Origin: Gautieria morchelliformis
Taxonomy: Eukaryota; Basidiomycota; Agaricomycetes; Gomphales; Gomphaceae
Length of the DNA stretch: 64,000 bases
Direction: 5' to 3'
Assembly (NCBI GenBank): GCA_015179125.1
Contig: WHVA01000075.1
Span: 236,597-300,596, forward strand
This document shows, one piece after another, positions 1 to 64,000 of this stretch. The notes beneath the pieces are model-generated. The model searched no databases. It saw only the letters and a list, made by a program, of their open reading frames with translations, and was not told the DNA's origin. Position 1 is the first letter of the stretch, and every line of letters starts with the position of its first letter. The position numbers were made by a program, and so were the translations under genes.

Positions 1-264
1 CTGTCTCAGAAGGCATATACTTGCACCCGGCCCTTTAGCGCCCAAGGGCTCGCGCGTCGAAGTCATTTCAAACTCCGCTGGGTGCAGCCGCCTGTGAAAG
101 TAGAAATAACAGAATGAAATGGAGAGATAGAGAGTGACTGGAAAATTTCGAAAATAAGCAGAGAAATGGATGCATGGTACAAGAACAATGTGAGAAACAA
201 TTGGAAACACCACACAATAAATTGAACATATTATGCTTGATTTTGGTGCAGGAGCATAAATGCA
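1..264. other. Unassigned sequence at the left window edge
   Basis: I see no supportable gene here. The stretch sits directly before the RNase H part of a gypsy element, but its translation does not continue that domain. It is probably the far side of a deletion or insertion that removed the rest of the element. Confidence 0.3.
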
Positions 265-2034
265 CCCAACACATCCCACGTCATCCTCGTCCTCTCTGAC
301 CACAAGAACCTTGAGTACTTCGCAACTACAAAGCAGCTGACCCGACGACAGGTAGGATGGTCCGAACACCTGTCAGGGTTTAACTACATCATTCGCTACC
401 GAGCTGGGCGACTTGGCACAAAGCCGGATGCATTGACCCGTCGGGGCGACGTGTACCCTAAAGGGGGGGATGGTGCTTATGCATTAGCGAATCCCCACAA
501 CTTCCAGTCGATGTTTAAAACCGGGCAACTCATTCACGCCATCATCCTTGACTCTGCATCACTGTTGACATCCATCCAACAGGGCCAGTTGACCGATCCC
601 TCGTCCTCAGCCCACATCACCTGTCTTCAGTCTCAGTCGATGATGGTCCTCCTTCCGAACACAAAGCCAGACCCTTGGTCACTTGGAGAGGATGGCAAAA
701 CACTGTTGTACAAACAGCGAACGTATGTCCCCGATCATAATGATATTCGCTTGGACATCCTTCACTCGCTGCATGATCATCAGTAAGCAGGCCACCCAGG
801 GATCAGCAAAACGATGAAAAACATTGGGAGACAGTATCATTGGCCGAACATGTCCACCTTTGTCACCAACTATATCAGCTCCTGTTCCAAGTGTCGCCAC
901 GCTAAATCCATTCATCACAAACCCTTCGGTCCTCTTCGCTTTCTGCCCATCAGCCAACAACCTTGGGATTCGATCTCCATGGACTTCATCGAGGGACTCC
1001 CACCATCGGATGGACACGATATGATCCTCGTCATTGTCGACAGGCTAACGAAGATGGCCCTGTTCATTCCGACATTCTCAGACATCGATTCAGGAGACGT
1101 CGCCATGCTCTTCCTTCGCCACATATTCACTAAACACGGTAGCCCCAGCGACATCGTCTCCGATCGAGGGAAGCACTTCACATCTCGATTCTGGACCTCT
1201 CTCTGCGAAATCCTCGGCATCAGGGGTAATCTTTCTACAGCCTACCACCCCCAAACTGATGGCCAGACCGAACGAGTAAACCAGATCCTCAAGCAGTATC
1301 TCCAAGTCTATATCAACTACCAGCAGGACGATTGGGTCGACCTTTTGCCTCTCGCCAAATTCGCCTACAACAACACAGCCCATTCGGCGACCCAGGTCAC
1401 ACCCTTCTCCGCCAACAAGGGTTTCCATCCAAAGCTCGAAGTATCGCTCACTTCGGTCGCTTCCAAGGACGCTTATCGCCAGTCAGCAGACCTCAAGGAC
1501 CTTCACCAATACCTTCGAGATCAAATCAAGAAATCAATTATCCAGTACACTTCGGCCACAACCAGTCGCCGCATTCCGAGCCCTGAGTTTCAGGTCGGCG
1601 ACAGAGTATGGCTCGACTCGCGAAATATTCACACAAAACGACCTTCAAAGAAACTCGACCACCGAAGACTTGGCCCATATCCTATCATGGCTAAAATATC
1701 TTCTCATGCATTTCGCTTAGGCTTACCACTGGACCTTCGCCAGATCCACCCTGTGTTTCATGTATCCCTTCTCAAACCCGCCACGACATCTACCATCCCA
1801 GGTCGATATGCAGACCCCCCACCTCCTATCGAAATTGACTCTGCCGATGAGTACGAGATCACAAAGATCCTCAATAGTCGCATTCGCCGGAAGCGATTGG
1901 AATACCTAGTGGAGTGGAAGGGATACGAACACACTCCCGACACTACGTCTTGGGAACCCTCTTCGAATGTTACTAATTCTGCTCGCAGACTCACCGAATT
2001 TCATGCAAAGTACCCCCAGAAACCCAAGGCTTAG
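265..2034 (+). pseudogene. Ty3/gypsy pol fragment: RNase H end, integrase, chromodomain (gypsy-A)
   Basis: This is the 3' end of a retrotransposon polyprotein. Reading one frame, it shows the end of RNase H (SDHKNLEYF, then GTKPDALTR near 330-435), the integrase H2C2 zinc finger (H-H-C-C around 770-900), the DDE integrase core (SMDFIEGLP at about 975, SDRGKHFTS at about 1155, AYHPQTDGQTERVNQ at about 1240), and a C-terminal chromodomain (EYLVEWKGYEHTPDTTSWEP at about 1900). The frame is continuous except for one TAA stop at 784-786, inside the zinc-finger region. Gag, protease and reverse transcriptase are missing, and no LTR is recognisable on either side. Integrase inserts the cDNA; a chromodomain in this class usually guides insertion to chromatin marks. 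The copy is dead unless the stop is read through. Confidence 0.92.
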
Positions 2035-2327
2035 ATGTTTACCAAACCCCAAGAAAACGACACTCTGTTCACATTCTACCTATAGATTCAACTCCCTTAA
2101 TTAATCTCCTCTCAATCCTCACCCAACTCCCTTCGACTCATTCTACGCCTGCAACCGACACCTCGTCAGACGCTCCGAGCTCCCCATCAACCTCTTCGCC
2201 CCCCCTCGATGGCTAGTAAGGGTACTCGAGGGTTGTGCATCATGCTTGGCCATCGTCCTGACCATACCCCTCGCTATCCGTGCCCTCTTACCTTCCCCAT
2301 CAGGAGTGAAGCAGATGTGCAGTCGCC

Positions 2328-2877
2328 TCACTGTGACAGGCTCTGCAGCTTTCGCCGACCCAGGCATACCCTGGCCGGCTGTGAATCAGAGTAGGGGACT
2401 TCGCCGAATGCATCACCAAGTTAGCATAGTCGTCACAAGAATACATGAGAAAACTATACCTTCCAGGTCCTTCCTAGTCACCTCCCTTCCTTCGCACCCC
2501 TTCGACGTCAGCCTAAAAATCGGAGCCGGAGTCAAATTGATATCCGCTTCTGCGGGTACCAGTTCCAATGTCGGTGCCGAACTTTCTAACCACACCCTCA
2601 CTTTCTGGACCTCCTTTGCCAGCTCGTCTACTTCGGACGGTCTTTCGAACGTTTGGTCGACCACCTCCTCGGCCTGCAGCATTTTCCGAAGCTCCTCCTA
2701 GACCTCATCATTGAGCGAACGAAAGCTAATAAAGGAAAGAGCGGTACTCACTTGAACCCCTGCCGCATCGACCAACCCCTGTTCCACATCCCCACACGAC
2801 TCTCCCCAAAGCTCTGGCCTAACCCTCCACATGATCTGCGATCGATCGAGGAGAACTGAGTACCCAGGTGTCGTCAT
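2328..2877 (-). CDS. Putative spliced ORF opposing gypsy-A, unknown function
   Basis: I do not recognise the protein. Three exons can be built on the minus strand: 2877-2752 (begins MTTPGYSVLLDRSQIMWRV), then 2697 to about 2470 after a 54 nt intron with GTGAGT donor and TAG acceptor (2751-2698), then a short last exon ending with TGA at 2328. The first splice joins in phase. The middle exon is acidic and reads as a real amphipathic protein (for example QKVRVWLESSAPTLELVPA). It starts about 30 nt from the truncated end of gypsy-B and converges on gypsy-A pol. It could be an antisense gene carried by gypsy-A, or a host exon set trapped between two elements. Last-exon boundaries are uncertain. 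Confidence 0.42.
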
Positions 2878-2903
2878 AGGGGCAGTATGCTTGGCTGGGG
2901 TGC

Positions 2904-5900
2904 TTAGTTGGGTCCCATAACCCCGTTCCGTGCCGTGTTTTTACGGATCTGCTCATATGCCTCTGACATATCGAGTTTTGTTCGATATCGACAGCGAGCC
3001 ATGTCGCTGCAAATGATATCTTGATCCGGGAAGGGCGTGACGTCCTTCACCGTGTTCTCGTTCTGCTGGCGCAGATCGAAGACGGTTCGCAATGTACCGT
3101 TCTTCTTCGGCACACACAGCATGGGCACGGCCTGCTGCACGACTGCCGGAATCCACCACTTTGCAGTGGTGTATCGTTCTATTTTAGCCGACAGTTCCTC
3201 TCGGAAGTGTTCGGGGCATTTCGGTAGTCGATACCGCATGTGCTTGTTGGGATCGATGAGGTTGATCTCGTGGTTGATCTCCCGTAGTGGCGGGGTTCTA
3301 ATGGAATTCCACTGACTAAGTCAGTGATTCGTTCCATCCATTCCTCGCAGAGGCGAGGAAGGTCATCATCCGTGATGATGATGGTGGTGGTTGGCTTAGA
3401 AGCCCTTAGGCGCTGTGTGCGTCTATTAGGTCCCGCAGCGCACAGGCCCGCTTTCCTCTTTCCCATCGCTTTCACGGTTAGGTGAGAGTGCCTCTCCCTA
3501 TGGTTGTAGGGTGAGTTCGAGGACAAGTCGTCCCGCGACTCGTCCTCCTGGCTTCAATGAGCCAGGTTAGGCTTCGGTGCCTGGGTGATCCTGCTCACCC
3601 GTGGCCCCTTGTCCTCGTTCATCGATCCATCGTCGTCGAACGATACCTTGCCCGTGGGGATCACTTCGTTCCCCTTGCGGATCGTCCCTGGGCTCGAAAA
3701 GTCCAGGGTTATGCCGAATCTCCTTAGGAACGGTGTCCCTAAGATAGTGTCGTAATATTCGACGTTCGCTACATCGAAATATTCGTCGTATGTCTCACGA
3801 CCAAATTTGATGGTCGTGTTTGTTCCATAGTTGATCGTGGAACGGCTGCCTATGCAGGCTAGCTGCAGCGCAATTGGTTGCTCCAGGGAGAATGTCTTCA
3901 TCCCTGTAGCTCGCGTGAATTTGGGGGATAGCAGTACCCCTTCGCTGCTGCTATCTAGCAGACAGTGGGCTTTTATGCCGTTTATTTCCCAGTACCCCGA
4001 TAGGGTACGGTTCTCACTGTGCGGGCGCATTGGCCACGTCCTGTGTTTGCTTCGGTGGTGATACACCGGCTCGGCTGCCTTGTCTGGCGTGACCGACGTG
4101 TGTGCCACCATGACCTTCGTGGCGATTTCGTCTTCCAGTGCGAATCTGATCGCGCTGGACCTGTAGGTGGTGTCTTCCACCTCCTCGTCCCATTCATAGT
4201 ATTGGGACGGCTCTGGGTCCCATTCTTCAGTGGGCGCATCTCCGTTGTCCGGAGTGTCGTTGGGTTGGGGATCACCCTCCCCCTCTTCCTCAATCTGTTG
4301 AAGAGAATTTTGACCGAGATCCGTCTCTGGATCCTCGGCCTCATTGTCGTGCCTTACGGCTGCTGTCCTTATACTGGACCTAAGCCGGGGGCACTCTGCC
4401 TTCTTGTGGCCAGGTTGGCCGCATTCAAAGCACGTGGTGTTGCTTTGGCTGCCGTTGGGCCTATCGTTAGGCCGGCCCGACGTTTTCGTTGGTGGGGCAG
4501 GTCGTGGGGACGACCCTGATGCTTGAGGCTGTTTAGCTTCAGCCAGGCGTCCAGCTTGTGCTGGGCATGAGGGCGGTAGCCGTTGTCCTGTTCCGCTTCT
4601 TGCGAACAGGCTGGGCCTGGTCAGGCCTGTTTGTGTCAACGGCTTGCTCCCTGTGAGCCCGGCAGCGCTTGCCGTTGCTGCTGCGCTTTCTGTGTGGCGC
4701 ATCCCCATGTTGTATCGGGATGCCTCCTCAATCATCCGGGCCATTTCGAAGAGTTGCTCTATTGAGCTGCTCTCGGCATTATAGCCCTTTTTGAGGACCT
4801 CGTTGCGCAGCGTTTCGCGCAGCGCCGATACGAACCGTCTCCGGAACATGTAATCGTCTGGCGGCTGTATCATACGTGCCGCGTATTTCGTGAGCTCGTT
4901 CAGCATCTCCTGAACGGTTTTCATGCCCTGCATGACCGCGTCGAATTTATTCGATGCGTGATGGTACGTTAGTGTGTGCAGGAACCTTTTTTGAAGGCCT
5001 TGCATCACAGTTTCTAGCGTCCAGCTACAGACCTGGCGATCGAAGCGTTCAACGTTTTGAAGGAACCACTCCTGGGCTTCGCCGGTGAGGCGAGTTCCCA
5101 CATAGCCGACCTGCATGTCAATGCTGGTTGGCCCTAGGAGGCAATTCATTTTCAGCCATCGTAGGATGGCTGCCACGAAGATTTCAAACTCTTCGAGGTC
5201 AGATCCCCCGGCATATGGCTCGGGGTGAGCCAATTTTACGCCGGCTTTTGCTAGCACAGACTTCTCCGGGTCTGTGTCCGCGGCGTCTGCTAACACCACG
5301 CGGATCATCCATGTGATCCCATCGTACGGCTCCATTGGTATGACGTCGGCCTGGTCAGGGATTCCCTGGCCTTCCGTTGGGGCCATGGATCGCTCGCGCG
5401 GTTGTGATGCCGCGCAGGGCAGGCTGTTATATGCCCTGGCGGGCCCCGGGCCCGGATCGGGCTCGGGATCGGGAGCATTTTGTGCTCTTGGTTCCAGGGG
5501 TGTTTTGTGCCTGGTGTCCCCGGTCAGTCCCACGTTGCGGATCCGTAGCCTGCTGTTGTAGGCTGTGCGTGCTTGCCGTGCGTTCTGTATGGCTTGCATG
5601 AGCTGCTCGTTGGGCAGCTGAGCAGTGTGGCTGTGGGCCACTGTCTCTTCAGCGTTCTTCACTAGTAGCTCGAGTGCCCGTGTGTGGTGGCGCATGGCTG
5701 CGGCTTCTTTATGCTGCCAGTGTGCGACTTCGAGCTCTAAGCTCTCGGTCGTCATTTCAGAGTCAGGCTCTGAGGTGACCTGCTCCCTAACGATCTGTTG
5801 GATCGTCTTACGGCTGTCCGTTGGGGCAGCCGGTTGCTATTGAGGTTCGTTCCCAAACCTTATGTCCTGTTCGACTGGGACGGCTGGCGGTGGCATTCGC

Positions 5901-6692
5901 TGCTTGTCTCGCTCCTTTCAGCGTGGGTCTTCCACGTCGCGACTGCGTTCGTTGGCTGCAGACTGTTGCAAGCTCGGACGAGTTGCATCGCGTTCCCTGC
6001 GTGGACGGAGGGCTTTCTGGACGTCCTCCAACGTGGCTGCGTCTTGCAGCCTGATCTCCTCCGCCTGGTGGAGTTCCTTGCCGATTGCCATTAGGGCGGC
6101 GGCAGCGTTGTCAAGCTGCGATGCCAGCTGATCGTGCTTGTGGCGTGTCAGCGTGCTTCGGTGCAGCGCAGCCTGCACCTGTTTGTTCAGGGCCTCTGCC
6201 GTCTCGTGGTCGATGGCGTGAGCCCTCGAGCTCTTGCGACTGGAGCTCGAGTATTCCGAGTCCTGACCATCGTCTGGGGCTTGTCTTTTTTTGCTGTCGT
6301 CCCCCTTCAGGGACGATCGTCGTCACTCTACTTCATGAGCGTCGGTTTGAGTCGTGGCTTTGTGCCCGCCTCGACGTTGTTGCTCTACCGTCTGACGATG
6401 GCGAGACTTCTCTGCCCTTTCCTTTGTCTCTGGGCAGAGAGGAATGGGGGGGCGGCACCGGCTCATTGCCCGGCATCGTCTCTTCCTCGGCCACGCTCGA
6501 CAAGACATGGTTGGGGTTTTCCTCGTCCTCTGCTGAGGGGACGAGGGCGGTGAGATCTACGATCTCTCCGTCTTCTATCGTCCTGGACTCTTGGTCCAGG
6601 GTAGCGTCAACTGTCGTGTCGCTGGGCTGCGCCTGGGGCGTGGACCTCGAGCTCATCGCTCGTGTCGGTCTTCGACTGTGTGGAATCATCAT
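2904..6692 (-). pseudogene. gypsy-B gag-pol: gag, CCHC knuckle, protease, partial RT
   Basis: Reading on the minus strand, an N-terminal gag part opens at 6692 or 6653, continues in a different frame at about 6310-5918, and then in a 733-residue frame from 5755 to 3554. That frame holds the retrotransposon gag domain (GEAQEWFLQNVERFD near residue 230), a CCHC zinc knuckle (CFECGQPGHKKAEC, near residue 450) and a retropepsin-like protease (residues about 590-690). The protease active site reads LLDSSSEG where the family normally has DSG or DTG. A separate frame, 3239-2904, is the start of reverse transcriptase (VPKKNGTLRTVFDLRQQNEN and KLDMSEAYEQIR), ending before the catalytic YXDD box. At least two frame changes and the truncation make it a pseudogene. 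Confidence 0.88.
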
Positions 6693-6914: not shown

Positions 6915-8012
6915 TGACAGGTAAGAGTAAGATGCGATGGGGACCGCTGGCCAGTTCCCACGCATAAACTATACAGTGGGTCCCTAAGGGGCCCACTGGG
7001 ATTATGTAATAACTATTGTACATGTAGATACACGGGTTATTTACAATTAGTGAACACAGCGAATGCCCGAAAGACTTGTGCGAATAAGTATGCCGTTCGG
7101 TGAATAGGTGAACCAATAAATGTTCACAAGATAAGAGGGCTGCCTGAGCGGAGCTTGCCCTATCTACAGTCGTAGCGAAATAGCCCATGGCACTTGACGA
7201 TGTAACATGCAAGGTGTCACGGAAGGGTTGTCTAAGTAGCAATAATCCCTTCGCCGTCAGCACAGAAAATAGTTCGAAGGCTAAGGTAACGAAGATGAAG
7301 TATGAGAACTCACCAGTGATGCCTAAGTCCTCTTCTGGTTGAAGATAGAAATCTCCAGGAGAAGGCTCAAAACGATGATCACAGCGAGGTCAAGTTTGCA
7401 CAAGATGGACGACGTATGATAATTGAACTGAGGAATATACATGTGAATGTAAACTACTTATATCGAATGCTCGTAAGGTATCAGCGAATAGGAAAGAGGC
7501 CGTTGTCAGTCAGGGTTGGATAGGGGTGCGCAGTCATGATACTAAGTAGATGGAATAAGCATACAATAGAGTGTGGGAAGAGTGCAAACATGAAATGACA
7601 GAGAGTAAAGGTGGCGAAGGCACCTATGTACGAAACCATGTCTTGGGACCCACATACATGCTACCCTGCACGGACTCTTCGTCTACTAGGTTAATCCCGC
7701 ACGACCTACGGAAGGGACGTCCCGCGAACACACTTTGGCCATATGAACACCCAAAGGGGTTGGATTAAGAAGATGATGGGGTTAGTGATGAACCATCACG
7801 CCGGGTAAATGGTATCGATCGTATTTGATGGCGTGCCTGCTGGCGAAATGTGCGAGCAGCGAATAGTGGTTCGGAGAATGGGGCGAACAGCGGATAGAGT
7901 GGATGTAGAGGAGGAGTGGTCGGAGGGTGAGGCAAACTCTGGCGAAGATGCTAGGGAGTGACGAGGGGGAACATAGAGGCAGTGGGGTAAGAGAAATAGA
8001 CAGGCCATGACA
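6915..8012 (-). repeat. 5' LTR of gypsy-B
   Basis: In element orientation the repeat starts TGTCATGGCC (at 8012) and ends CTTACCTGTCA (at 6915), a TG...CA structure of 1,098 bp. It aligns along most of its length with the plus-strand copy at 36123-37120, which starts TGTCATGACC. This shared repeat is what identifies it as an LTR. Open frames inside it are shadows of the repeat. Confidence 0.82.
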
Positions 8013-8528
8013 CTTACCCATGAAAATTGCAATAGCAGAAGTTGCCAATCTCCAAAATTGTGTCAGCCAAACAGTCACACAATCTCACGCAATTTCTGGA
8101 ATCATCTGGAATCAACATTATCTCATTTTGGGTGTGATTCCATACAATTCCGTAGTCGAATGGGCTCTCAATGTTTCATGAGAGTTTCTTGAATATTTTG
8201 AGGTAAAAATTTTAGAAGTTTTGAAGGATTTCCTGAAGTCAAAAAACTCTGACAAAACATTAAATTTTCATCCAATTTCCTGAACTGGGAAATTTTGAAG
8301 AAATGTGGAATGCCTTAGGATTTCCAGTAGATTTCTAAAGTCAGGAAAATTTGCCATGTCTTCAGTGGGATGAGCTTTTGCAGGTTCATGGTGAGCCATC
8401 TTCCTGGTTCTGCCTCAGCAGAGCTCTATAAACTCCGTCGGACTTTCCATAGGTTTGGCGCAAAAGGCAAGCACGTGACCTGCCGATTGGGGATTGGTTC
8501 CGTTGAACGCTCATCTTACTGCTCCCCA
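8013..8528. other. AT-rich intergenic region
   Basis: This stretch contains short A/T-rich repeats (several variants of TTTTGAAG and TTTCCTGAA) and no credible ORF before 8529. It presumably holds the promoter of the next gene. No TATA box stands out. Confidence 0.4.
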
Positions 8529-35324: not shown

Positions 35325-35977
35325 TGTTACGACCATGCAATTGTGACATCCGACACTCCGTTCCGCTCACATTCTGACACTCCGATAATTCTGACAATCC
35401 CGCACCTTGTTACATCCTTTGTTCTTTCTACTCTATTACTTGGACCACTGGACTCGACTCGCAGCACAGCAAGACCATATGTCCATCCCCTCTGGAATTC
35501 CGTTGTTCCGTTATGTCAGATATGCTTTCTGACCCCTTGTTCTTTTGCCATTGTTCTTTACTCTACCCTGCACCCCTTTGTAGTCCTTTGTTCGCAATTA
35601 GTTACTTACCCTGTATGTCAATCTGACTTCCGCTTCCTCCAGAATTTGCTTAGTACTATCCCATTACCTGTTGTCTCAGCTCTTTGTATAAAAACCCCCT
35701 CATGTATGCTCGTCATTCTGCAATCAGATAATTGCCTTTGATATGTGATTTCCTTCACTCTATCTCCTGTTCTTAGCACAGTGAGGTTTGCAAGACCTCT
35801 CTGCCTCTCTGCCTTCTGCTCTCTGATGCAACTTCCGACCTCTGCCTACTTTAACACTTTCCGACTTCCGACTTGTGATCCAAAATACATAGGGTGATAG
35901 TTCATTGGGGGCGCAACACATAAGTTGAAGCTGTTGTCCTTTCTAGTTCCGACTTGTGGAAATCCCAATATGTAACA
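35325..35977 (-). repeat. Solo LTR of the gypsy-C superfamily with 5 bp target duplication
   Basis: The 653 bp unit begins TGTTACGACC and ends ATATGTAACA. Its core matches, in inverted orientation, the LTRs at 55129, 56157 and 63376 (shared segment around GGGGGCGCAACACATAAGTT). AGCCA immediately precedes (35320-35324) and follows (35978-35982) it. A single LTR with intact target duplications is the usual scar of LTR-LTR recombination. Multiple TTCCG pentamers lie inside, as in the related LTRs. Confidence 0.88.
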
Positions 35978-36122
35978 AGCCATCTCCATACACATATCTG
36001 ACTGCTGATGGGCATGCTTGATGGCCATGGCCCTCCATGGAATTGTTGCTGGCTTTCGACTCAGCAAACACTCATGCCAAGAAATGCTCCATTCTTCCTG
36101 TTGTTGGGCCTTATGGGTTTGG

Positions 36123-37120
36123 TGTCATGACCCATCTACTTCCCTCGCCTCGCTGTCTTTACGTTTCCCCTCATCGCTCCTCCTGCAGGTTCGCCTGAGT
36201 TTGCCCTTCCCTTCTACCACGCCTCCTCGATATTCGCACTATTTGCTCTTCACGCCATTCGCCAAACGGTTATTTGCTGCTTGCATCATTCGCCAGCAGG
36301 TATGCCATCAAACACGATCGACACCCTCTACCCGGCATGATGGTTCATCACTGGCCCCATCATCTTCCCGATCCAACTCCTTTAGGTGTTCATATGGCCG
36401 GAATGCATTTGTGGGATGACCTACCCATAGGTCATGTGGGATCAACCCAGCAGACGAAGAGTCCGTGCAGGGTAGCGTATATGCAGGTCCCAAGGCGTGT
36501 TTTCATACATAAGTACCTTCATCCCCTTTCCTCCCTGTTGTTTCATGTTCGCACTCCTCTTTCATTCTATTGTATCTGTGTTTCATCTATTTGTATCATG
36601 ACTGCGCACCCCTATCCAACCCTGACTCCAGACGGCCTCTTTCCTATTCGCTGATATCATACGAGCATTCGATATAAGTAGTTTCCATTTGCATGTATAT
36701 TCTGCAGTTCAATTATCATATGTCTATCTTGTGCAAAACTTGACCTCACTGTGACCATCGTCTTGAGCCCTCTCCTATAGATTTCTATCTTCGACCAGAG
36801 GAGGACTTAAGCACCACTGGTAAGTTTTCATACTTCACCTTCATTACCTTAGCCTTCGAACTATTATCTGCGCTGTCAATGAAGGGCTCCGAAGGAGCGC
36901 CTTCGCCGGCGAAAGGATTGTTGCTACTTAAACAACCTTTCCTTAACACCTTGCACGTTACATTGTCAAGTGCTACGGGCTATTTCGCTACGACTGTAGA
37001 TAGGGCAAGCTCCATTCGGGAAACACTCTTCTCTTCTGAACATCTATTGGTTCACCTTATTCGCTGGATGGCACACTTATTCGCACAAGTTATTCGGGCA
37101 TTCGCTGTATTCACTAATAC
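36123..37120 (+). repeat. LTR of the gypsy-B family, 3'-truncated
   Basis: It starts TGTCATGACC and aligns with the gypsy-B LTR (8012-6915, reversed) over about 1 kb, for example GGCTATTTCGCTACGACTGT near 36980. It differs by an extra segment of about 30 nt around 36880 and lacks roughly the last 130 bp. No internal element sequence follows. It is a remnant or solo LTR. Confidence 0.8.
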
Positions 37121-53792: not shown

Positions 53793-54065
53793 GTGTATTA
53801 TGCAATAGCTTATCAAGCATATTTGTTTCTGTCCTTGAATTGCCGTGTGTGCTGTCTATCTGCTTGTGTCCTTGAATTGCATACACTGTCTATGCCTCTC
53901 CTCAGTGAGACTTAGCCTCTTCCACTGTTGAATTGCACAAGACCTTGGCAGTGTATTATGCCATAGCTTATCAAGCATATCTGCTTCTGTCCATGAATTG
54001 CTGCATAAGCTGTCTATGCCACACCTCAGTGAAACATAGCCTCTTCCACTGTTGATTTGCACAGT
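53793..54065. repeat. Imperfect tandem duplication, about 115-158 bp units
   Basis: Unit 1 (53793-53950) and unit 2 (53951-54065) both start GTGTATTATG, share ATAGCTTATCAAGCATAT and TAGCCTCTTCCACTGTTGA, and differ by an internal 40 nt expansion in unit 1. Confidence 0.75.
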
Positions 54066-54808
54066 ATAAATGTCTCATTAGATCTCTTTCTACTGTTCCA
54101 TCTTCTCTGCGCAAACACTGCTGTACACTTCTACTCTCACTGCTCAACTCTTCCCTTACCCTAAATGTTAAGTATCTATCACATCGCAGCATTATGCACA
54201 TGATATCTTTTTTTCCTCTCTGCATGATGGCACTGCACAGCCACAGTGTCTTGACATTTCTAATCAAATTCACTATCTTTAATGGATGAACTCAATCATT
54301 GACTTTCGACCCCTGAACCAACAGCTTTGCATTCCTGGCTCATTGTATCCCCTGCTAGCTCAGACACTCTTGTTGATTCCAGGAGAGGATGGAGGCAGAC
54401 AATATGACTGATGGTTCCAATGATGGATATGATCTCAGCAAACAGGACAAAGGTGCATGCACAACGTTGAAGTGGGCTGTCATGTGTAAGGGCAACCCTG
54501 GCTGGTTGTGGAGATCACACTACCACACAACTGACAAGGGGAAATCCAAAGTATGTATAAATGAACAGAGCATACAAGAGAGGGGATTCTCACCTGACAA
54601 GGGGAAATCCAAAGAGAAAAGTCTAAGGACCCCCAATGTCAGCGAGCTCATATTATACTACGCTGCGCAGCCAGGGACAACACTTGGCACCCGCCATCAA
54701 CCCTGCATCTCCCTGACCACCCTGACCCTTGATCGACCCTTGATGCCACCTATTATGCGAGTCGCTTGATTTCCGACACTGTTCCGAGAGTGGAAGTCGG
54801 AAATTGGA

Positions 54809-55051
54809 GTGGAACTGGCGAGGCGAACAGAACTGGTGGAAGGTCTCCCAGAAGCGGAATCATTTCCGAAAGCGGAGGCGGAGATGGAATCGGAACCGGA
54901 AGCGGAGTCGGAAATGGAGTCGGAACTGGGTGTGGAGTCGGAACTGGAAATGGAAAACAGGGTGTCCCCTGACATCATGGGCCTCACTACAACCCTTGCA
55001 GCAAAAATTGAGCAGCTATCATTTGATAGTTGGCCTGTCAGACAGGCTTGA
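54809..55051 (+). other. Short acidic repeat ORF, rich in CGGAA
   Basis: An 80-codon frame (starting MELARRTELVEGLPEAESFP) consists largely of Glu-Ser-Glu repeats (EAESEMESELGVESELEMEN) and ends MGLTTTLAAKIEQLSFDSWP. At DNA level it is a series of TCGGAA/GCGGAA units. Composition matches the acidic tail of the antisense protein of gypsy-C, 78 bp before the diverged LTR, so it may be a relic of another copy. Confidence 0.35.
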
Positions 55052-55128
55052 CGCAATGAACTAGATGCTGTGAAAGAGACTCACAACATCAACCCATTTC
55101 CCCAGATGGGAGATTGCAATGCTCCATC

Positions 55129-55857
55129 TGTTATGTATTGGGAATCCCAGAGTTCAGATCTACAAGGACAGCGGCTTCAACTTATGCGTTGCGCCCCCAA
55201 TGAACTATTGTCCTAAGTATTTCAGAAATGGAGGTCGGAAGTCGTAAGAGGTGGAGGTAGAGAAGGGTTCAAGAATTGAGCTAAGTTGAATGTCGGAGGT
55301 CAGAGATCAGAAGTCGGAAGTCGGAAGACAGAAGGTCAAGAGGCAGAGAGACAAAGATCTTCCAAGCTTGCTGTGCTAAGGACAGGAGACAGTGTGAAGG
55401 GAGTCACATATTGAAGTCGATTAACTGATTTCAGAAACAGAGAGCATACATGAGCGGGTTTTATACAAAGAGCTGGAACAACAAGTAATGGGGCAAGCAT
55501 AATCAATTCCAGTGCGAGTGGAAGTAATTATGACAAACGGAGTAACTAACTAATGCAGAACAAGAGAACTACAAGGGGGTGCAGGGTAGAGTCAAGGACA
55601 ATAGGCAGAATAACAAGGGGAATGTAAGTCTAATGGACAGTGGAACAAATGGAACTCCTAATGTACTGGACTTGGTATCTTGCTGTGCTAAGGGTTGAGT
55701 ATGGAGGGCCGATGAATAGAGTTGTAAGGGGTGTAGAAAGAACAAGGGGGTCGAGGGTCGAGGGTTGTGGATGTTACGGACATTGCAGAATAGAGTTGGA
55801 GGTGGTGTGGAAGTGATTCGGAGGTTGCAGAGTTGGTCGAGTGGCATGGTCGTAACA
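55129..55857 (-). repeat. LTR of the diverged gypsy-C relative
   Basis: Ends TGTTA...TAACA are inverted repeats. Core homology with the 56157 LTR includes GGCTTCAACTTAT and AACTAT(T/C)GTCCTAAGTATTT. Confidence 0.82.
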
Positions 55858-55969
55858 GTATCTCCCCTTCAAGGTTGAGTCCTGAGAGACCAAAGGCTGG
55901 GTCACGTGACTGGAACAATGATGTTGGAGTTTGAAACATAGATGGAATGCGAGTAACTTTGCATTCTGC

Positions 55970-56156
55970 CACCATGTTGTTCGTCAATGTTGCGGATCTA
56001 TCTGCTGAAGAACTAGAGCAACTCCTGAAAAAAACACGAAGAGCAAGAGGCTAGTGTGAAGAGCATGAAAAACAGCACAAGGAATGTGAAGATCACGAAT
56101 GCATGGACTGTGAGTGTGAGGACCACGAGCGCAAGCTCAAATGCATAGAGATAGAG
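55970..56156 (+). pseudogene. Truncated start of an antisense ORF in the diverged copy
   Basis: A plus-strand frame opens at ATG 55974 (MLFVNVADLSAEELEQLLKK), meets a TAG after 26 codons, and continues in frame as a charged stretch (CEEHEKQHKECEDHECMDCE). Its position, 117 bp from the LTR edge, and its layout (short hydrophobic start, then 'SAEE/SAEM', then Lys/Glu-rich helix) parallel the antisense ORF of the complete copy, which starts 123 bp from its LTR. Sequence identity is low. Confidence 0.5.
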
Positions 56157-56818
56157 TGTTACGTATCGAGATTTCCACTAAGTCGGAACTGGAAAGGACG
56201 GCGGCTTCAACTTATAGGTTGCGCCCCCGATGAACTATCGTCCTAAGTATTTTGGAACTGAGTCGGAAGTCGGAAAGTACTGAACCAAAGGTTGGTCGGA
56301 ACTTGGGTCGGAACTGAGGCGGAAGGCGGAAGACGGAAGGCAGAGAGAGACTGAGATCTTGCTAAACTCGCTGTGCTAAGAACAGGAGATGGAGCGAAGG
56401 AAATCAAGTATCGAAGGTGATTATCTGATTGCAGAATAAGAGACATACATGACAGGCTTTTATACAAAGAGCTGAGGCAACAGGTAATGATATGGTACTA
56501 AGCAAATTCCGGAGGAAGCGGAAGTCGAGTAGACAATGCCTGGGAACTAACTATTGGGAACAATGGGACTACAAGGGGGGTTCAGGGTAAGGTAGAACAA
56601 TGGCAAAGAACAAGGGGTCGGGAAAACATATCTGACAACGAAACACAAGGAGGGTCGGACATATGGTCTTGATGAACGGTAAGGTGGGTCCGGTAGGTCC
56701 GAGTAATAGAGTCGAAAGAACAAAGGAAATGTACAAGGGGCGGAATGTCGGAAATATCGGAGGGGCGGAAAGTGTTGCGGAACTGGAGGTCGGAAGTTGG
56801 AAATGAACAGTCGTAACA
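56157..56818 (-). repeat. 3' LTR of gypsy-C
   Basis: 662 bp, TGTTACGTATCG...CAGTCGTAACA, with short inverted ends. It contains 14 CGGAA on the plus strand by direct count; about 0.6 would be expected in random sequence. Confidence 0.92.
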
Positions 56819-56940
56819 GTATCTCCCTTCTAAGGTCGAGCCCCGCGAGACCACAGGTCGGATCACGTGACCTATGAACAAACACGTCGGGGTTCAAAAA
56901 AATAGGCTGAGGAACAAACGCGTCTTCTTCCCAATCCAAC

Positions 56941-58171
56941 ATGAGTGCTCCAGTCGATTTCTCCAAGATGACGAGTGCCGAGATGAAACAGCATTTCGCT
57001 GATATGCTCGCACAAAAGGAACTGGCCGAAAAACGCAAGGCCGAGGAAGCTGCGCGGAAAGAGAAGGAACGTCGGGAGAAAGAGCGGAAAGAGCAGGAGA
57101 GGAAGGAACGCGAGCGCCGTGAGGAGGAGGAGCGCGTTCGTGAAGAGAAATGGAAACGGAACGCGGCACGGAAGGCTGCTGAGGATAAGGCTGCTGCAGA
57201 GAAGCGGCTGCGGAGAAGGCGGAAAAGGAACAGGTGAGTCGGGAATGTCCGGCGGAGAAGTCCTTGTTTTATCTGAAAAATTCTTTCAGAAAATTGTTCA
57301 GGACGAGTCGGAGTCAGACTCGGAAGGGTCGGCGGAAAGTACACCGTCTCCCGAAGGGAAAGGGAAACAGAAGGAAACCACTCCTTCGGTGAACCTTGTG
57401 GCGGAACGGAAACGGCGTGCAGACGAATTCCAAAAGGCTCGAAAGAGCAAGTTAAATCGGATGCTGGAGCTGCGTGAGCTAGGACCGGAAAATCCCGCGA
57501 CTAAGAAGCGGAAAACTCGGGACGGCAACGAAGAGGAGAAAGCGCCTTGCGACCCATGCGAGTCTAAGGGGCTGGATTGCACGTGGTCGAGTAATCCACA
57601 TGAAACTTCGTGCGATCAGTGCCGTGACAAGAAAAAGTGCTGCATCGTGGACGGGTGTGCTTCAAGGGTGGAGCGAAAAAAACAGAAGGTTGAGGAGTCG
57701 ATTCCGAAGTCGGAACCGGGACCAAGTGGAGGGAGGTCCGAGGAATCGTTTCCGGTGACCGGGAAATCGGGACAGGCGGTATTGAACCGATTTACAATGT
57801 CCTATCCTCTCCTTGACATTGCCGGGTCGCTGAGGGCCATGCGGAAACAGCAGCGTGAAATCCGGGACATCATGATCGAAATGGCAGAGGTTCAGCAGCA
57901 TCAGGTTCTGTCAATTCAGAACCAGATGACTGTCATGTCTACAGTCCTGCAACAGTTGATGTGGGAAATGCGGTGGCGGAATGATCTGGTCCGGGACCGA
58001 ATGGATGCGCAGCTGCGGGAGCAGGGAATTGGGGCGGAAGCGGGTCCGAGCGGGGAAGCGGAAACGAGGGAAAGGGTGGAAACGGAGTTGGTGAGTGTCG
58101 AGGTAGGAGAGGCGGAAAAAGAGCCGGAAGTGGAAGAAGAGGTCGAGGCGGAGACAATGAGGGAGGAGTAG
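56941..58171 (+). CDS. Antisense-strand Zn(II)2Cys6 coiled-coil protein of gypsy-C
   Basis: Exon 1 (56941-57233) starts MSAPVDFSKMTSAEMKQHFA and becomes a long Lys/Arg/Glu helix. Exon 2 (57290-58171) follows a 56 nt intron with GTGAGT donor and TTTCAG acceptor. It has an acidic/Ser stretch, a basic helix (RADEFQKARKSKLNRMLELR), then a cysteine cluster at about 57548-57660 with spacing C-x2-C-x6-C-x10-C-x2-C-x5/6-C, which fits the fungal Zn2Cys6 zinc-cluster rule. A second coiled coil follows (SLRAMRKQQREIRDIMIEMA onwards), then an acidic tail (EKEPEVEEEVEAETMREE). Exon 1 and exon 2 are not in the same phase as the sequence stands; a single missing base near 57204, within the Ala-Glu-Lys repeat, would explain this. 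Such proteins usually bind CGG triplets as dimers. The frame is otherwise open, unlike gag-pol. Function is inferred. Confidence 0.72.
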
Positions 58172-58321
58172 GTGTCGAGTTCTTGTAATTAATTTCTTGA
58201 AGTGTCGGAAATATGATAACGGGAACTAATCAGAATTTGTGTTGTGACTTAAGAACTGTAAGAATAATGAGGGTATCGGAATGGAATCGGAAATGACTAG
58301 GGCGCGGAAATGGGGCCAGGC

Positions 58322-61300
58322 TTATCGGATATGACTTGTGGAATCAGAGACGAGGTCAGAGGCGTGATCAGTTCGTGGCGGAAATCCAAGAGTCTCTTCG
58401 TCGGTGTTTTCATAGCCTGCCCACTTGACTAGGTACTGGAGTTGGCAGCGGTATCGTCTGTCGAGCTTGGAGTTGAGAATTTCCAAATTCATATTCCGGT
58501 TCTCCGTCGATGATGACTGGCGGAGGCGGAGGTTGTTCTGATTCGGAATTGTATTCGGAACTGCTGGCTCAAGCATGGAGACATGGAATACCGGGTGTAC
58601 TGCGCGCATATTGTCAGGAAGTCTGAGGGTGAAAGAACGACTGCCGGCCTTAGCGATGATCTCGTAAGGCCAAGGTATTTTCAGAGAGCTTCTTTGAGGG
58701 GCGAGTAGTGCGGAAGTTTTCCGCTTTGACAAAGACTTTGTCGCCATCTCGAATGCCGGTTGCGGAAGTCGTTTCCGATCGGCGGAAGTTTGGTATCTCT
58801 TTTGGCAGCTGTAATGTTCTCTCGGAGGTGCTGGTGAAGGTCGTCAAGTTCCACAACGAAATCTCGGGCTCTTGCAGAGGCGAGGTCGCGTTCGGGGTGG
58901 ATGGCGAGATTCGGGTGGTAGCCCTTGTTGGCGTAAAAGGGTGAAATTCCGGTGGTAGCGGAAGGCGCATTGTTGTAGGCAAATTCCGCAAGTGGAGAAG
59001 GTCGGACCAATTGCTTGTTGGTAGTTGCAATAGACGCGGAGATACTGCTCAAGGGTCTGATTAGTACGTTCCGTTTGTCCGTCTCCTTCGGGGTGATAAC
59101 CGGAAGTGAAGTGGAGTTCATGTCGAGAGCCTTGCCGAGTGTGCGGAAAAAGGAGGACACGAATTCTGATCCACGGTCGGAAGTGACATGGGAAGGTATT
59201 CCGTGCTTGGAAAAGACGTGGAGCACAAGAGCTGTGCGAGCTGGGCGGAAGTATGGTGTCGTAGGTCGGAATAAAGATGGACTGCTTTGTGAGGCGGTCA
59301 ACGATCACTAGAATGGTATCATAGCCGGATGACTTAGGAAGTTTCTCAATGAAATCCATGGATATGAATTCCACGGTTGTTCCGGGATCGGAAGTTGCTT
59401 CAGGAGGCCGTAGGGTTGTGACGTTGAGGCTTGGCTCGCATACAGGTGGTGCATGACTTGCAGTAGTCTTGGACCATCGTGCGGAGGAGGGCCAAGTATA
59501 GGTACGTCGGATTATGTCGAGGGTCTTGTTCTGGCCTTGGTGTCCTGAGAGCGGATGATCGTGGCTTTGCTGGAGCACGCGAAGTCGTAGATCGTTGGTG
59601 TCCGGAACGTAAATCCGGGACTTGTACCGGAGAAATCCGTCGGAATCGAGGGACCATCCAGGACTGGTGGGGTCATCGAGGTGGGTTGCGTAGGTGGGGT
59701 CGGAACGGAGTGCGGAACGGATGTCGGAATGGAGAGACTCGGTGTCCATAATAATTGAGGCGCGGAGTAGCGGAAACTGCAATGCTGTGGCACGCAGGGA
59801 CGATGCCAGTTGCTCAGTGGAGAATACTGGGCGGAAATTGTGCGGATTAACGCTGGCATAGTCGCTACTTCCCTCTTTTGGGTAGACGTCCCAACGTCTA
59901 GTGAGCGCGTCGGGTTTTGCTCCGAGCTTTCCGGGGCGGAAACGGATCACCATGTTGAACTGTGAGAGGTATTCAGACCAGCGGACTTGACGGCGAGTCA
60001 AAATCTTAGTTGTTGCAAAATACTCAAGGTTCTTATGATCCGTTACAATGTCAATCGGATAGGTTGGACCTTCGAGGTAGTGTCTCCAAATTTTGAAGGC
60101 TTCGAAATCGCAAGTAGTTCCTTATCGTGGACATCGTAGTTGAGTTCCGGGGCGGAAAAGGTGCGGGAATGAAAGGTGATCGGATGAATTTCTCTGTCGT
60201 CAGGGGAAATGATGGAAAGAATGGTGGCTAGCACATAGTCGGAAGCGTCGGTTTCGAGTACAAGTTGGGCATCAGGAATCCAGAAACCGAGTATGGGACC
60301 GTAGTGAAGGCCGATTTGAGGGCTTCAAATGCGGAACAGCATTCCGGAGTGAATTTCCATGGGGCACCCTTCCTGGTGAGACGCATGAGCGGAACAGTTA
60401 TGTCGGAAAAGTTATAAATGAAACTCGGTAAAAATGGCGAAGCCAAGGAAAGACTGCACATCCTTACACATCGGGGTTCCGGCCATTCTTGAATTGCCTT
60501 GACCTTGTCCTCTGCCATGGTAAGACCTGTTGGAGAGAGGATGTAGCCGAGGTATTCGACCGTGTCGCGATGCCATTTCGCATTTCTCTGCTTTTGCGTA
60601 GAGATGATGTTTGCGTAGACGGCGGAGTACTTCGCGGACATGTTCCCGATGTTTTTCCGGTGTGTCGGAATAGATGAGGATGTCGTCAATGTAGACTAGG
60701 ACGCATACGTCGAGAAGGTCGGAAAATACGTTGTTCATGAATCGCTGAAAAGCGGCGGGAGCATTGGTTAGACCAAAAGGGATGACAACCCACTCAAAAG
60801 CACCGTAGCGGGTGCGGAAAGTGGTTTTCCACTCGTCACCTTCTCGGATGCGGACAAGGTGATAAGCGTGCCGGAGGTCGATTTTGGTGTAGATCTTCGC
60901 CCTGCGGGGGAGTGTCGAGTAGGTCGGAAATGCGCGGAAGCGGATATTTGTCCTTTTAGTGAGGGCATTGGAGTCCGCGGAAATCGACGCAGAGGCGGAG
61001 AGATCCATCCTTCTTCTTGACGAAAAGGACCGGAGCGCCGTGCGAGACAGCGAAGGGCAGATAAAGCCCATGTTGAGATGTTCATCGACGAACTCGTGGA
61101 GAGTTGGAGTTCACTTTGCAAAAGGGAGTAGATCGGTCCAAGGGGCGGAGATGCTCCTTCTTCCAAATCTATCCCCAGACCGCAAGGTCGATGTTCAGCA
61201 GTTTGTCGGCTTTGGCCTTGTTGAACACGTCCGGGAAGTCACGATATTCTTCCGGAACTGAGCTCATGTCGACCGGAGCGGAAGTCGAGACGGAATGAGC

Positions 61301-61850
61301 CTTGACTGAAGCCGAATCGGAAAGGTGAAGCTGGGAAAACGGTCGTATCTTCTGCCGTTGCAATACGCGGAAAGCGGTGGCAGAGACGAGCGCAATTCGA
61401 GGAGCTTCGAGGGGCGGAGGTGCTAAAGCGGGACCGGAGTGCGGAACTGAATCCACGAGCGGAGTTGCAGAAGAGCCTGAGCCATCTTTGCGGACGATGT
61501 CGGAATAGACGGAAGTTGATCGGGGTACGGAACTGTATTTGACCCAATGCCCAGTTAATCGACGGATTATATGGGTGAGCCAATTGTGTCCTAGTACAAC
61601 GGAACAGCTAGCATCTAGCGGAGTAACGTAAAACATAACTTCATGGTTGTCCCCAGTAGCGAAACGAATAGACAGATCCACGACTTGGGAAATTGCCGTG
61701 TTGGAAGATCCGTCGAAAAGGTGGAGCGGAATAGTCGGAATGTTGCGGGTCGGAAGTTTATGTTTCAAAACAAAGTCGGAATCGAGGAAACAACGAGTCG
61801 AACCGGAGTCGACCAGTGCTGTGAACGGGGGTGCGGAAATGGTGTCGGAA
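58322..61850 (-). pseudogene. gypsy-C pol: protease, RT, RNase H, integrase, chromodomain
   Basis: Reading leftwards: protease with an intact ALVDSGSTRCF motif (about 61830) and LGHNWLTH (about 61585); reverse transcriptase with [35 protein letters not shown] and the active site [13 protein letters not shown] (about 60700); RNase H ([46 protein letters not shown]); the integrase zinc finger and core ([20 protein letters not shown] at about 59350, [33 protein letters not shown]); a chromodomain remnant (LQYLVKWAGYENTDEETLGF, about 58400). The catalytic residues listed survive, but at least eight frame changes or stops break the frame. The domain order is that of chromoviruses. Confidence 0.9.
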
Positions 61851-63342
61851 GTGAGCGGAACAGAGAGGGAGTCGGAGGACGAAAGAGCGGATGCGTTGAG
61901 TTAACCTCGTTTGTCGCACGAATGGGGTCAACACAGCCTCAGCTCGTGCGGAGGCCAGAGGACTGCTGGACTATTTTTTTGAATCCGCAGCGGGAGCCGC
62001 TTCGGATTTCTCTTCCGTCTTTGCTGTGCGGCCCTTGGCCTTAGCAGCGGAGGGGAAGCTTGGGTGTAATTGTGAGCGACGTGTCCGCCTTTGCCACAGA
62101 AAGGCAAAGGTTGTTGTCCATGCGACGCTGGCGTTCTGCAGGGGTTAGTTTTCCGTCCTTCCCAAGTTTGTCGGAAAGGTCCGGAGTGCTCTTCGGGCGT
62201 TGGTGTTGGAACCAGAGGCCTGGTTGTTGCGAGGGGTGGTTGTGTTGTTCCGGTTGCCGGAGTTGGATCCGGAACTGTTGTTGTTGTTGTTTCCGGAGTT
62301 GTTGTTTCCGGAATTGGTCTTCTTCTTGTCTTTATCAGACTTCTTGTCGGAAGACTTGTCGTTCTTGCTCTGGGTGGAAGTTTCACGAGAAATCTCGGAG
62401 TGTCTTTCCAGTAGCGCGAATCGATGGATTGGGCGAGGTTTCAGAGGTCGGTAAGGGTGGCGGGTTTTCCACGCGGGCAATTTCATCCTTGATGGGGATG
62501 GCAAGCCCATGTAAAACTGACGTCGGAGTGCGGCTTCTCCCCATTGGACTCGAGGAGCGAGCTGCTGGAATGTGACGATATATTTTAGCTATCTTATGAG
62601 TGTCTTTCATACGAAGCTTATCGAGTTCATTTTCCGCATCGGCTTCCATATCAATGGTCCGAAGTTGCTGCGGAGTTCGGAAAGAAATTGGGGTAATCGT
62701 CGGCCCAGTCGACGAGAGCGAACGGATCCATGAGGGCGGGTTCGAAATAGTCGAGGCCGTGCCTCGGAGATAGGAAAGGGCATAATTGACCTTTCGTTCG
62801 TCGTCGGGAAAGGCGTCGGGCGATCACGGAAATTGAGTTGAAGCTGAACCAGAAATGGCTGGAGCTTCTTGGGGTCGGAACCGTCGAACTGATCTGGTTC
62901 GCGGACCTTTGTCTTGGGGCGTGGTGGTGCTTGGGCCGGGCGCTGGAGTTGTCCGGCTAGCATGGCGATGGCTTGTGCAAGATCCGGAACTGGCGCGGGC
63001 GGAACTGGGTTGGCGGGAATCTGAGGTGGAATTGGAGGTGGAGGACCGCCTGGAGGCCTGGTCCTGGTGGAGGTGGTGGTGGTGGAGCTGGGCGTCGGAA
63101 TGACGCTGCTGTTTGTTCGCCGCTGCTACTCGTCGAATTCCCGTCATAGTCGGGATTGTCGTCGGGATTGGCGTTGGGAACTTCTTCGAAACGTTGCGGA
63201 AAAGCATCGGAGAGCTCATCATCAGTACGAGAGCTGCCGGAGGGTTCCGCGTGCCTTGGTGCTGCGGATCTAAGACTCCCAAATAAGAGAGAGCTTCGAC
63301 AGCTCCTGCTCAAGCTGAAGTAGCTGTGGTACGAGGAGGCAT
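61851..63342 (-). pseudogene. gypsy-C gag, degenerate
   Basis: The frame opens MPPRTTATSA at 63342 and stops at once. The reading then moves between frames: RTDDELSDAFPQRFEEVPNA, a Pro-rich linker, and the gag core KVREPDQFDGSDPKKLQPFL with LVQLQLNFRDRP (about 62900-62820). A CCHC knuckle near 62100 has lost cysteines (FCGKGGHVAHNY). A Ser/Asn/Lys-rich linker lies around 62350. Damage is heavier than in pol. Confidence 0.82.
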
Positions 63343-63375
63343 AGCGATAGTTATCGGGTGGGAATCAGATATTAC

Positions 63376-64000
63376 TGTTACGTATCGAGATTTCCACTAA
63401 GTCGGAACTGGAAAGGACAGCGGCTTCAACTTATAGGTTGCGTCCCCAATGAACTATCGTCCTAAGTATTTCGGAACTGAGTCGGAAGTCGGAAAGTACT
63501 GAACCAAAGGTTGGTCGGAACTTGAGTCGGAACTGAGGCGGAAGGCGGAAGATGGAAGGCGGAGAGACTGAGATCTTGCTAGACTCGCTGTGCTAAGAAC
63601 AGGAGATGGAGCGAAGGAAATCAGTATCGAAGGTGATTATCTGATTGCAGAAAGAGAGACATACATGACAGGCTTTTATACAAAGAGCTGAGACAACAGG
63701 TAATGATATGGTACTAATCAAATTCCGGAGGAAGCGGAAGTCGAGTAGACAATGCATGGGAACTAACTATTGGGAACAATGGGACTACAAGGGGGGTTCA
63801 GGGTAAGGTAGAACAATGGCAAAGAACAAGGGGTCGGGAAAACATATCTGACAACGAAACACAAGGAGGGTCGGACATATGGTCTTGATAACGTAAGGTG
63901 GGTCCGGTGGGTCCGAGTAATAGAGTCGAAGAACAAGGGAAATGTACAAGGGGCGGAATGTCGGAAATATCGGAGGGGCGGAAGGTGTGGCGGAACTGGA
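63376..64000 (-). repeat. 5' LTR of gypsy-C, cut by the window edge
   Basis: TGTTACGTATCGAGATTTCC matches the start of the 56157 LTR exactly, and homology continues to the last base. About 35-40 bp lie beyond the window. Confidence 0.9.

Follow-up and report, generated by a model that had tools for sequence, protein, structure and literature searches.

Genes lying antisense between pol and the 3′ LTR have been described before. In the available portions of the literature, they are reported for the plant elements Grande (gene23), RIRE2 and Retand (TRP28) and for the fungal element Boty of Botrytis (brtn; PMC7264820), with the Boty gene also appearing in PMC8365987 and in the reference title of Zhao 2011; TRP28 corresponds to PF04195 (PMC11963269). 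Some of these antisense ORFs are nuclear or predicted to bind DNA, and the same excerpts treat as an open question what antisense genes do in LTR retrotransposons (PMC7264820, PMC11963269). The first-pass annotation of the locus presented here, which knew of no described system of this kind, was therefore incorrect in this respect. Two further systems are relevant, again as given in excerpts of the sources: the HTLV-1 HBZ and APH antisense proteins are spliced, expressed from the 3′ LTR and mostly nuclear regulators (PMC10186651), and the VANC proteins of Arabidopsis VANDAL DNA transposons have as targets a short, family-private motif present in the same orientation at high density (PMC5735166), their anti-silencing activity being set in an arms race with silencing (PMC10398659).

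We analyzed a 64,000-nucleotide stretch of the Gautieria morchelliformis genome (122 Mb in 1113 contigs), hereafter the window, which forms the end of a contig (C837) that stops at window position 64000. This end is occupied by a Ty3/gypsy element in – orientation (56142–64000). Its 3′ LTR covers about 56142–56818 (– strand; edge placed by eye at TGTTACG) and its 5′ LTR about 63376–64000 (– strand), truncated by the contig end; the two are 96% identical over 631 aligned bases, the 5′ LTR being incomplete. The pol gene (58322–62040, – strand; limits from alignment to the open pol frame of another copy, L031) is broken in this copy. The element had been called a chromodomain gypsy element. RT_RNaseH, the integrase zinc-binding domain (Integrase_H2C2) and SH3_Tf2-1 all scored above the Pfam cut-off in the window pol pieces, whereas the Chromo domain fell short (16.8 bits vs. 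a cut-off of 25.1). Judged by these matches, the host of the antisense gene is a fungal Ty3/gypsy LTR element, putatively of the chromodomain kind, with a chromodomain match below cut-off in the window copy.

The antisense gene lies between pol and the 3′ LTR on the strand opposite to pol and comprises two exons (56941–58171, + strand). Exon 1 (56941–57233, +; 293 nt) starts with MSAPVDFSKM and continues into a Glu/Lys/Arg-rich repeat (57000–57233); it is followed by a 56-nt intron (57234–57289, +) with the donor GTGAGT and the acceptor TTTCAG ending at 57289, and by exon 2 (57290–58171, +), which encodes 293 aa plus a stop and is under purifying selection. The ATG at 56941 is positioned 123 bp inward of the 3′ LTR edge, and the gene and pol are arranged tail to tail, with their stop codons 150 bp apart. 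The opposite-strand spliced gene was thus located as the first-pass annotation had claimed, at the ATG, donor and acceptor given above, and its description of a nearly open frame with a single-base loss was likewise borne out, since the 293 nt of exon 1 leave the window copy off by one base.

A genome search with exon 2, in which 134 of 724 candidates were scored, returned at least 141 matches of 62–100% identity, and exon 2 was free of stops in 112 of 141 among the matches listed (hand count). On this evidence, the openness of the antisense frame across genome copies is not due to chance. We also searched the genome with the C-terminal 173 aa of pol and scored 150 of 2995 candidates. At least 104 of these 150 pol tails were followed by the gene in antisense, 104–679 bp past the tail (median 179), with another genome search adding two; for the remaining 44, there was no gene among the matches listed. 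Among the 47 pol tails with identical scores, at least 34 had the gene and 13 had none among the matches listed. Taken together, these counts indicate that the antisense gene is a trait of the element family, which we refer to as family 1.

We then compiled a set of 50 copies (the window copy plus 49 loci, with the duplicate L001 left out). The expected start, the splice and an open, in-frame exon-intron-exon join were found in 37 of 50, in agreement with the earlier expectation of an open antisense ORF in other family copies; as this test itself demands a matching frame, the telling figure is the number passing. In the passing copies, exon 1 measured 279–345 nt, always a multiple of three, introns measured 42–57 nt and the donor was GTGAGT in 36 of 37, while the window copy failed by its one base. 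The Glu/Lys/Arg-rich repeat of exon 1 differs in length among the passing copies in steps of three. These comparisons show a coding, spliced-looking antisense accessory gene.

Over 21 divergent copies (15 of them stop-free), the pairwise dN/dS of exon 2 was 0.24 before local-identity filtering, and in a six-frame control, the other five frames gave 1.54, 1.80, 1.25, 0.42 and 2.01. The value of 0.42 belongs to one antisense frame opposite exon 2, whose wobble positions we take to mirror those of the coding frame; the corresponding antisense frame of pol gave 0.52. With a local-identity filter on codons, which is itself biased towards lower values, dN/dS was 0.20–0.22 for the gene and 0.15–0.25 for pol (divergent, A-to-divergent and no-stop pairs), and 0.19 and 0.12, respectively, among copies with the type A gene (see below). 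Earlier pol estimates of 0.38–0.41 were discarded as inflated by the out-of-frame alignment of broken copies. The first-pass annotation had inferred that the gene was kept by selection, and at the family level this held up (about 0.2 vs. 1.2–2.0 in four other frames and 0.42 in the fifth); its impression that the gene was sounder than gag-pol did not hold as a general contrast, with in-frame stops in alignable codons giving no clear difference between gene (17/14295, 1.19 per 1000) and pol (42/29862, 1.41 per 1000) in a count that frameshifts stand outside. We therefore reject better preservation of the gene than of pol. These results support purifying selection keeping the gene at the family level, about as strongly as pol (dN/dS about 0.2), and, given the similar stop rates, selection acts on the copies that spread, with no clear slower decay of the gene in dead copies.

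The encoded protein contains a cysteine cluster, C-x2-C-x6-C-x10-C-x2-C-x6-C (57548–57643, + strand; pattern match and Pfam half matches), which is found in 47 of 50 copies, with a seventh cysteine following in nearly all aligned rows displayed. In Zn2Cys6 proteins (PF00172), the six cysteines are spaced C-x2-C-x6-C-x5/16-C-x2-C-x6/8-C, and the spacing in the antisense protein agrees with this pattern. Against the Pfam Zn_clus model, 13 of 14 antisense proteins matched at E ≤10 (best 9.3e-4). The whole window exon 2 scored 7.8 bits and excised 53-residue pieces of four copies, in native order, scored 14.2 to 20.6 bits, all below the curated cut-off (21 bits). In the best stretch, the first half of the cluster fell on the later part of the model (position 15 on), a second stretch was present in three of the four copies, and the order of the halves was the reverse of that in the model. 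Exchanging the halves was rejected as a way to improve the match, as it yielded one stretch through profile positions 1–31 yet lower scores. The zinc-cluster type claimed for the protein thus stands as to spacing (47/50) and fails as to the profile (at most 20.6 bits vs. 21, halves reversed), and we read the protein as carrying a Zn2Cys6-like cluster whose two halves are in opposite order, outside Pfam membership. Like fungal Zn2Cys6 (Zn_clus, PF00172) regulators, it has the cysteine spacing and, in three of four copies, two half-stretch matches; unlike them, it scores below cut-off, has reversed halves, carries the cluster in mid-protein and shows no second Pfam domain.

A single-sequence structure model predicted one long, coiled-coil-like helix at exon-2 residues 172–244 (57803–58021, + strand), with pLDDT blocks of about 88–96, lower towards the ends, a whole-model mean pLDDT of 61 and little else confident. 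This helix is compatible with a coiled coil, at low overall model confidence. The Pfam scan supported no other domain in the antisense protein. Searches of a protein database at E ≤1e-3 returned no relatives, either with the single sequence (1376 candidates) or with a 14-row profile (7062 candidates), by a method that relies on shared five-residue words, so that distant relatives and unpredicted spliced genes may escape it. A pattern search of IMG/VR contigs gave 116 matches, none of them a relative, and the best match among solved structures had an E of only 0.53. In contrast, a pol piece had 3090 relatives in the same protein database, with Pisolithus, Antrodiella and Meripilus among the organisms named in the best 120. 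Because this word-based search at E ≤1e-3 gave no relatives while those of pol abound, we rejected a captured host regulator and read the antisense protein as lineage-specific, as fast-evolving between species, or as overlooked where gene predictions are lacking.

The element also carries a short word in large numbers. Between 56158 and 64000, CGGAA occurs 109 times on the + strand vs. 17.8 expected from dinucleotides, and 25 times on the other strand; this amounts to ~14 per kb, mostly in one orientation, whereas the rest of the window holds 0–4 per kb, except near 35 kb, where a related LTR lies, and in 54001–55000. The excess extends through coding DNA: after synonymous codon shuffling, TTCCG still exceeded expectation in pol of three copies (35, 36 and 16 vs. 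11.2, 11.1 and 5.0) and in gag (21 vs. 8.2), as did CGGAA in the gene's exon 2 in its own frame (14, 12 and 12 vs. 8.3, 5.5 and 6.8 in three copies). The LTR held 14 CGGAA vs. 1.7 expected. TTCCG was the top pentamer in L031 pol beyond codon choice, and the word was placed in all three pol reading frames; the opposite orientation was likewise in excess in pol (9, 11 and 8 vs. 3.4, 4.4 and 3.3, three copies, codon shuffling). Across 44 copies, median CGGAA densities were highest in the gap after the gene (25.6 per kb) and the LTR (20.6 per kb) and lower in exon 2 (14.8) and at the pol end (10.1); over 17 long copies, the median was 9.9 (range 4.9–13.4). When all pentamers were scanned in 31 tiles (2.9 kb each), the top word scored 2.9–5.0 in 25 tiles, and the six tiles scoring ≥5.9 all contained sequence of family 1 or of a second family described below; in tile 54001–56900, the top word was GTCGG, not CGGAA. 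Comparing gene types A and B, 43–57% of CGGAA sites were conserved vs. 23% for background pentamers. However, several control words, some of them purine-rich, were kept at 40–53%, and within B types the margin was smaller (46% vs. 31%), so that site-by-site conservation is weak evidence. These counts show an oriented, family-specific CGGAA array running through LTR, gag, pol and gene beyond synonymous codon choice.

Two other LTRs in the window are related to family 1. One (55128–55910), with ~50 bp of internal sequence, directly adjoins the element and has CGGAA only three times; the other (35325–35992) is 77% identical to family 1, lies in the opposite orientation and has eight CGGAA copies.

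At the opposite end of the window lies a gypsy element of a second family (pol 241–2034, + strand), also with an antisense gene. By eye, we read two exons (2877–2752 and 2697–2460, – strand) with the donors GTGAGT and GTATAG, and a probable third exon from 2378, the gene spanning 2142–2877 (–). A search with its 94-aa exon gave 150 scored matches of 195 candidates, with identity down to 34%, and this exon was present in antisense at 74 of 106 family 2 pol tails and on the same strand at 0 of 106. A pattern scan of the window found no cysteine cluster like that of family 1 at the family 2 gene. Three family 2 LTR pieces contained 7, 10 and 11 GCGAA vs. 0.5, 1.3 and 1.4 expected (0 of 500 shuffles as high), with CGGAA unenriched at 0–2. 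Family 1 LTRs showed the reverse, with CGGAA enriched and GCGAA not, weakly so in one old relative (CGGAA 3 vs. 0.6). In family 2 pol, TTCGC occurred 9 times vs. 2.8 after codon shuffling, second among all pentamers, and GCGAA-rich stretches of one orientation were found in family 2 sequence at window positions 1–2900, 7046–8013 and 36122–37118 and at 1–430 of locus L051. By these counts, family 2 differs from family 1 both in its antisense gene and in its private word, GCGAA. At about 2904–6110 (–), we noted by eye a third gypsy-like element, in which one frame resembles RT and another, of 760 aa, resembles gag and contains a CCHC motif; its tiles scored only 3.3 and 4.4 in the pentamer scan, with no comparable private word.

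The gene of family 1 is considerably more diverse than its surroundings. Over 14 aligned copies, mean identity was about 84–86% in the LTR, 92–94% in pol and 76–81% in the gene. The gene is not the element's sole divergent block, because the gag side likewise drops to 70–79% in these copies, at least partly through pairs such as L043–L047 near 50%. In L031 coordinates 7251–8250, pairs with L047 fall to about 50%, a possible second exchange block or insertion. We then compared types A and B along the element in steps of 60 bp (44 copies; 13 A copies vs. 15 B; at most 200 A-A pairs). In nearly every step across about 56870–58250, the extent of the cassette, A-B identity did not exceed the identity within the types. 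In pol past 58850, A-A and A-B identity were alike, near 0.85, and in the LTR, A-B identity was intermediate between the A-A and B-B values. Some pairs of copies differed at ~0.09 of third positions in pol and at 0.48 in the gene (unfiltered codons), and the gene/pol ratio of dS was 4–5x in divergent and A-to-divergent pairs vs. 1.6x within type A. Pairs with the reverse discordance exist; all those listed involve L034, with a pol match of just 65 codons.

Trees were built from 36 copies, since 14 of the 50, the window copy among them, had too few filtered codons; type A was monophyletic in 100% of 200 bootstraps for the gene and in 0% for pol, and the AU test against type A as one pol clade gave p=0.023 (36 copies) or p=0.012 (40 unfiltered rows). 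Gene and pol distances correlated at 0.22 (p=0.13; 15 copies, unfiltered pol codons), a weak concordance that fits shuffling but is no proof of it. The genes listed at 34 of the 47 same-score pol tails are of at least four types, typed by identity to two copies. These comparisons show the gene to behave as a divergent cassette exchanged among more uniform LTR-pol backbones, for which recombination between copies, probably through template switching, is the simplest cause. Selection would maintain the divergent gene types, and rare types may be favored, for example, if host silencing targets common sequences and misses the rare ones. Both the motif arrays and the cassette shuffling go beyond what the first-pass annotation had found.

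Our leading reading, which we infer tentatively and rate at somewhat less than an even chance, is that the gene encodes a DNA-binding anti-silencing factor acting on the element's own motif arrays in the manner of VANC. The protein would enter the nucleus and dimerise by its C-terminal coiled coil, and its Zn2Cys6-like cluster would bind the CGG-core motif. It would then coat copies of the family and keep chromatin open or unmethylated, so that LTRs remain transcribable; a promoter within the 3′ LTR or close to it may drive expression of the gene itself towards pol. In each of the two families, the antisense gene would encode the reader of that family's word. CGG is a usual Zn2Cys6 half site, and for this reason a CGG-core word suits a zinc-cluster protein; given the private motif arrays, action in trans for the family is plausible. 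The pairing of protein and motif rests on two families and on this half-site preference. Several observations speak against the leading reading: the Zn_clus match is below cut-off, with exchanged halves lowering the score; different gene types share one motif, so that motif specificity does not explain the diversity of the cassette; the motif fills coding DNA, unlike the targets of VANC; its strand bias would also suit a role at the RNA level; some control words come close to its site conservation; 13 of the 47 same-score pol tails have no gene among the matches listed; and the gag side diverges too. We regard as doubtful the broader proposition that fungal LTR retrotransposon families each possess a tag-and-reader pair, in which an antisense DNA-binding protein and a private pentamer present about a hundred times at synonymous and non-coding sites mark and de-repress the family's own copies, variant readers being shuffled between backbones by recombination.

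It is unlikely, in our estimation, that the protein is instead a brake, which would bind either the LTR or some host factor to repress sense transcription and so limit both copy number and damage to the host. The architecture does resemble that of HTLV-1 hbz (a spliced, antisense gene at the 3′ LTR for a nuclear regulator, as excerpted from PMC10186651), the word reaches its highest median densities in the LTR (20.6 per kb) and the gap 3′ of the gene (25.6 per kb), and divergent gene types on one backbone are similar to immunity types. However, a brake needs sites in the LTR only, and the array extends over gag and pol; the LTR does not track the gene type (A-B identity between the two within-type values); and selfish spread would favor brake loss, yet dN/dS is about 0.2. 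The strand bias of CGGAA (109 vs. 25) would also suit a role at the RNA level, with UUCCG in genomic RNA recognized by either Gag or a host RNA factor for packaging, export or translation and the antisense gene employed otherwise, and the rank of TTCCG at the top of L031 pol pentamers beyond codon choice points the same way; against this, which we also think unlikely, the opposite orientation is in excess in pol too, as recognition of dsDNA predicts, and packaging signals usually need fewer sites than the array holds.

We consider it quite improbable that the protein serves in particles or integration (as a nucleoprotein, in targeting or as a chaperone) with no recognition of the motif: a long coiled coil, as predicted, combined with a basic domain rich in Cys suits many roles, and the protein is conserved as pol is, but such a role leaves the family-specific motifs unexplained, and accessory particle proteins are usually encoded on the sense RNA. 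Finally, chance often leaves frames open opposite skewed coding DNA, and in many copies the gene is overlapped by long frames on the – strand, as a captured or chance antisense frame with no function would have it; that possibility, which we hold to be very remote, is already contradicted by selection on the antisense frame (dN/dS about 0.2, vs. above 1 in four other frames), with the splice frame kept in 37 of 50 copies and 134 copies scored of 724 candidates.

Set beside the described systems, the gene resembles the plant and Boty antisense ORFs in place, orientation, presence in most copies and conservation like that of the element's proteins (excerpts of PMC7264820 and PMC11963269). It is unlike the Grande, Retand and Boty set, of which brtn is known to us by description alone, in a protein that is unrelated as far as Pfam shows (PF04195 is absent from the Pfam matches here), in its split Zn2Cys6-like cluster, in its private motif array and in its cassette shuffling. 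With HBZ and APH, it shares, so far as sequence reveals, the antisense, spliced-looking arrangement at the 3′ LTR; unlike them, it gives no bZIP match in Pfam, belongs to a fungal host and has its start codon inside the LTR edge. The likeness to VANC, which we take from published description, is functional only: both combine an element-encoded factor, as proposed here, with a dense, one-orientation, family-private motif, in our case in two families. In contrast, ours is an antisense gene of an LTR retrotransposon, and while VANC targets are mainly non-coding, CGGAA fills coding DNA too, at about half its non-coding density (10.1–14.8 vs. 20.6–25.6 per kb). A literature search, with most subscription journals outside its scope, listed no antisense gene from fungi that combines a zinc cluster with a motif array. 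Within that scope, what is new is an antisense protein with a zinc-cluster-like motif, arrays of a word private to the family that continue through coding DNA, and the shuffling of the gene as a cassette.

The antisense gene comes with a candidate target, the private motif array, and the second family in the same genome provides a built-in control of specificity. Should the pair be real, fungal retrotransposons would join plant DNA transposons in sequence-specific self-recognition, and this would show that coding DNA can be packed with binding sites under selection.
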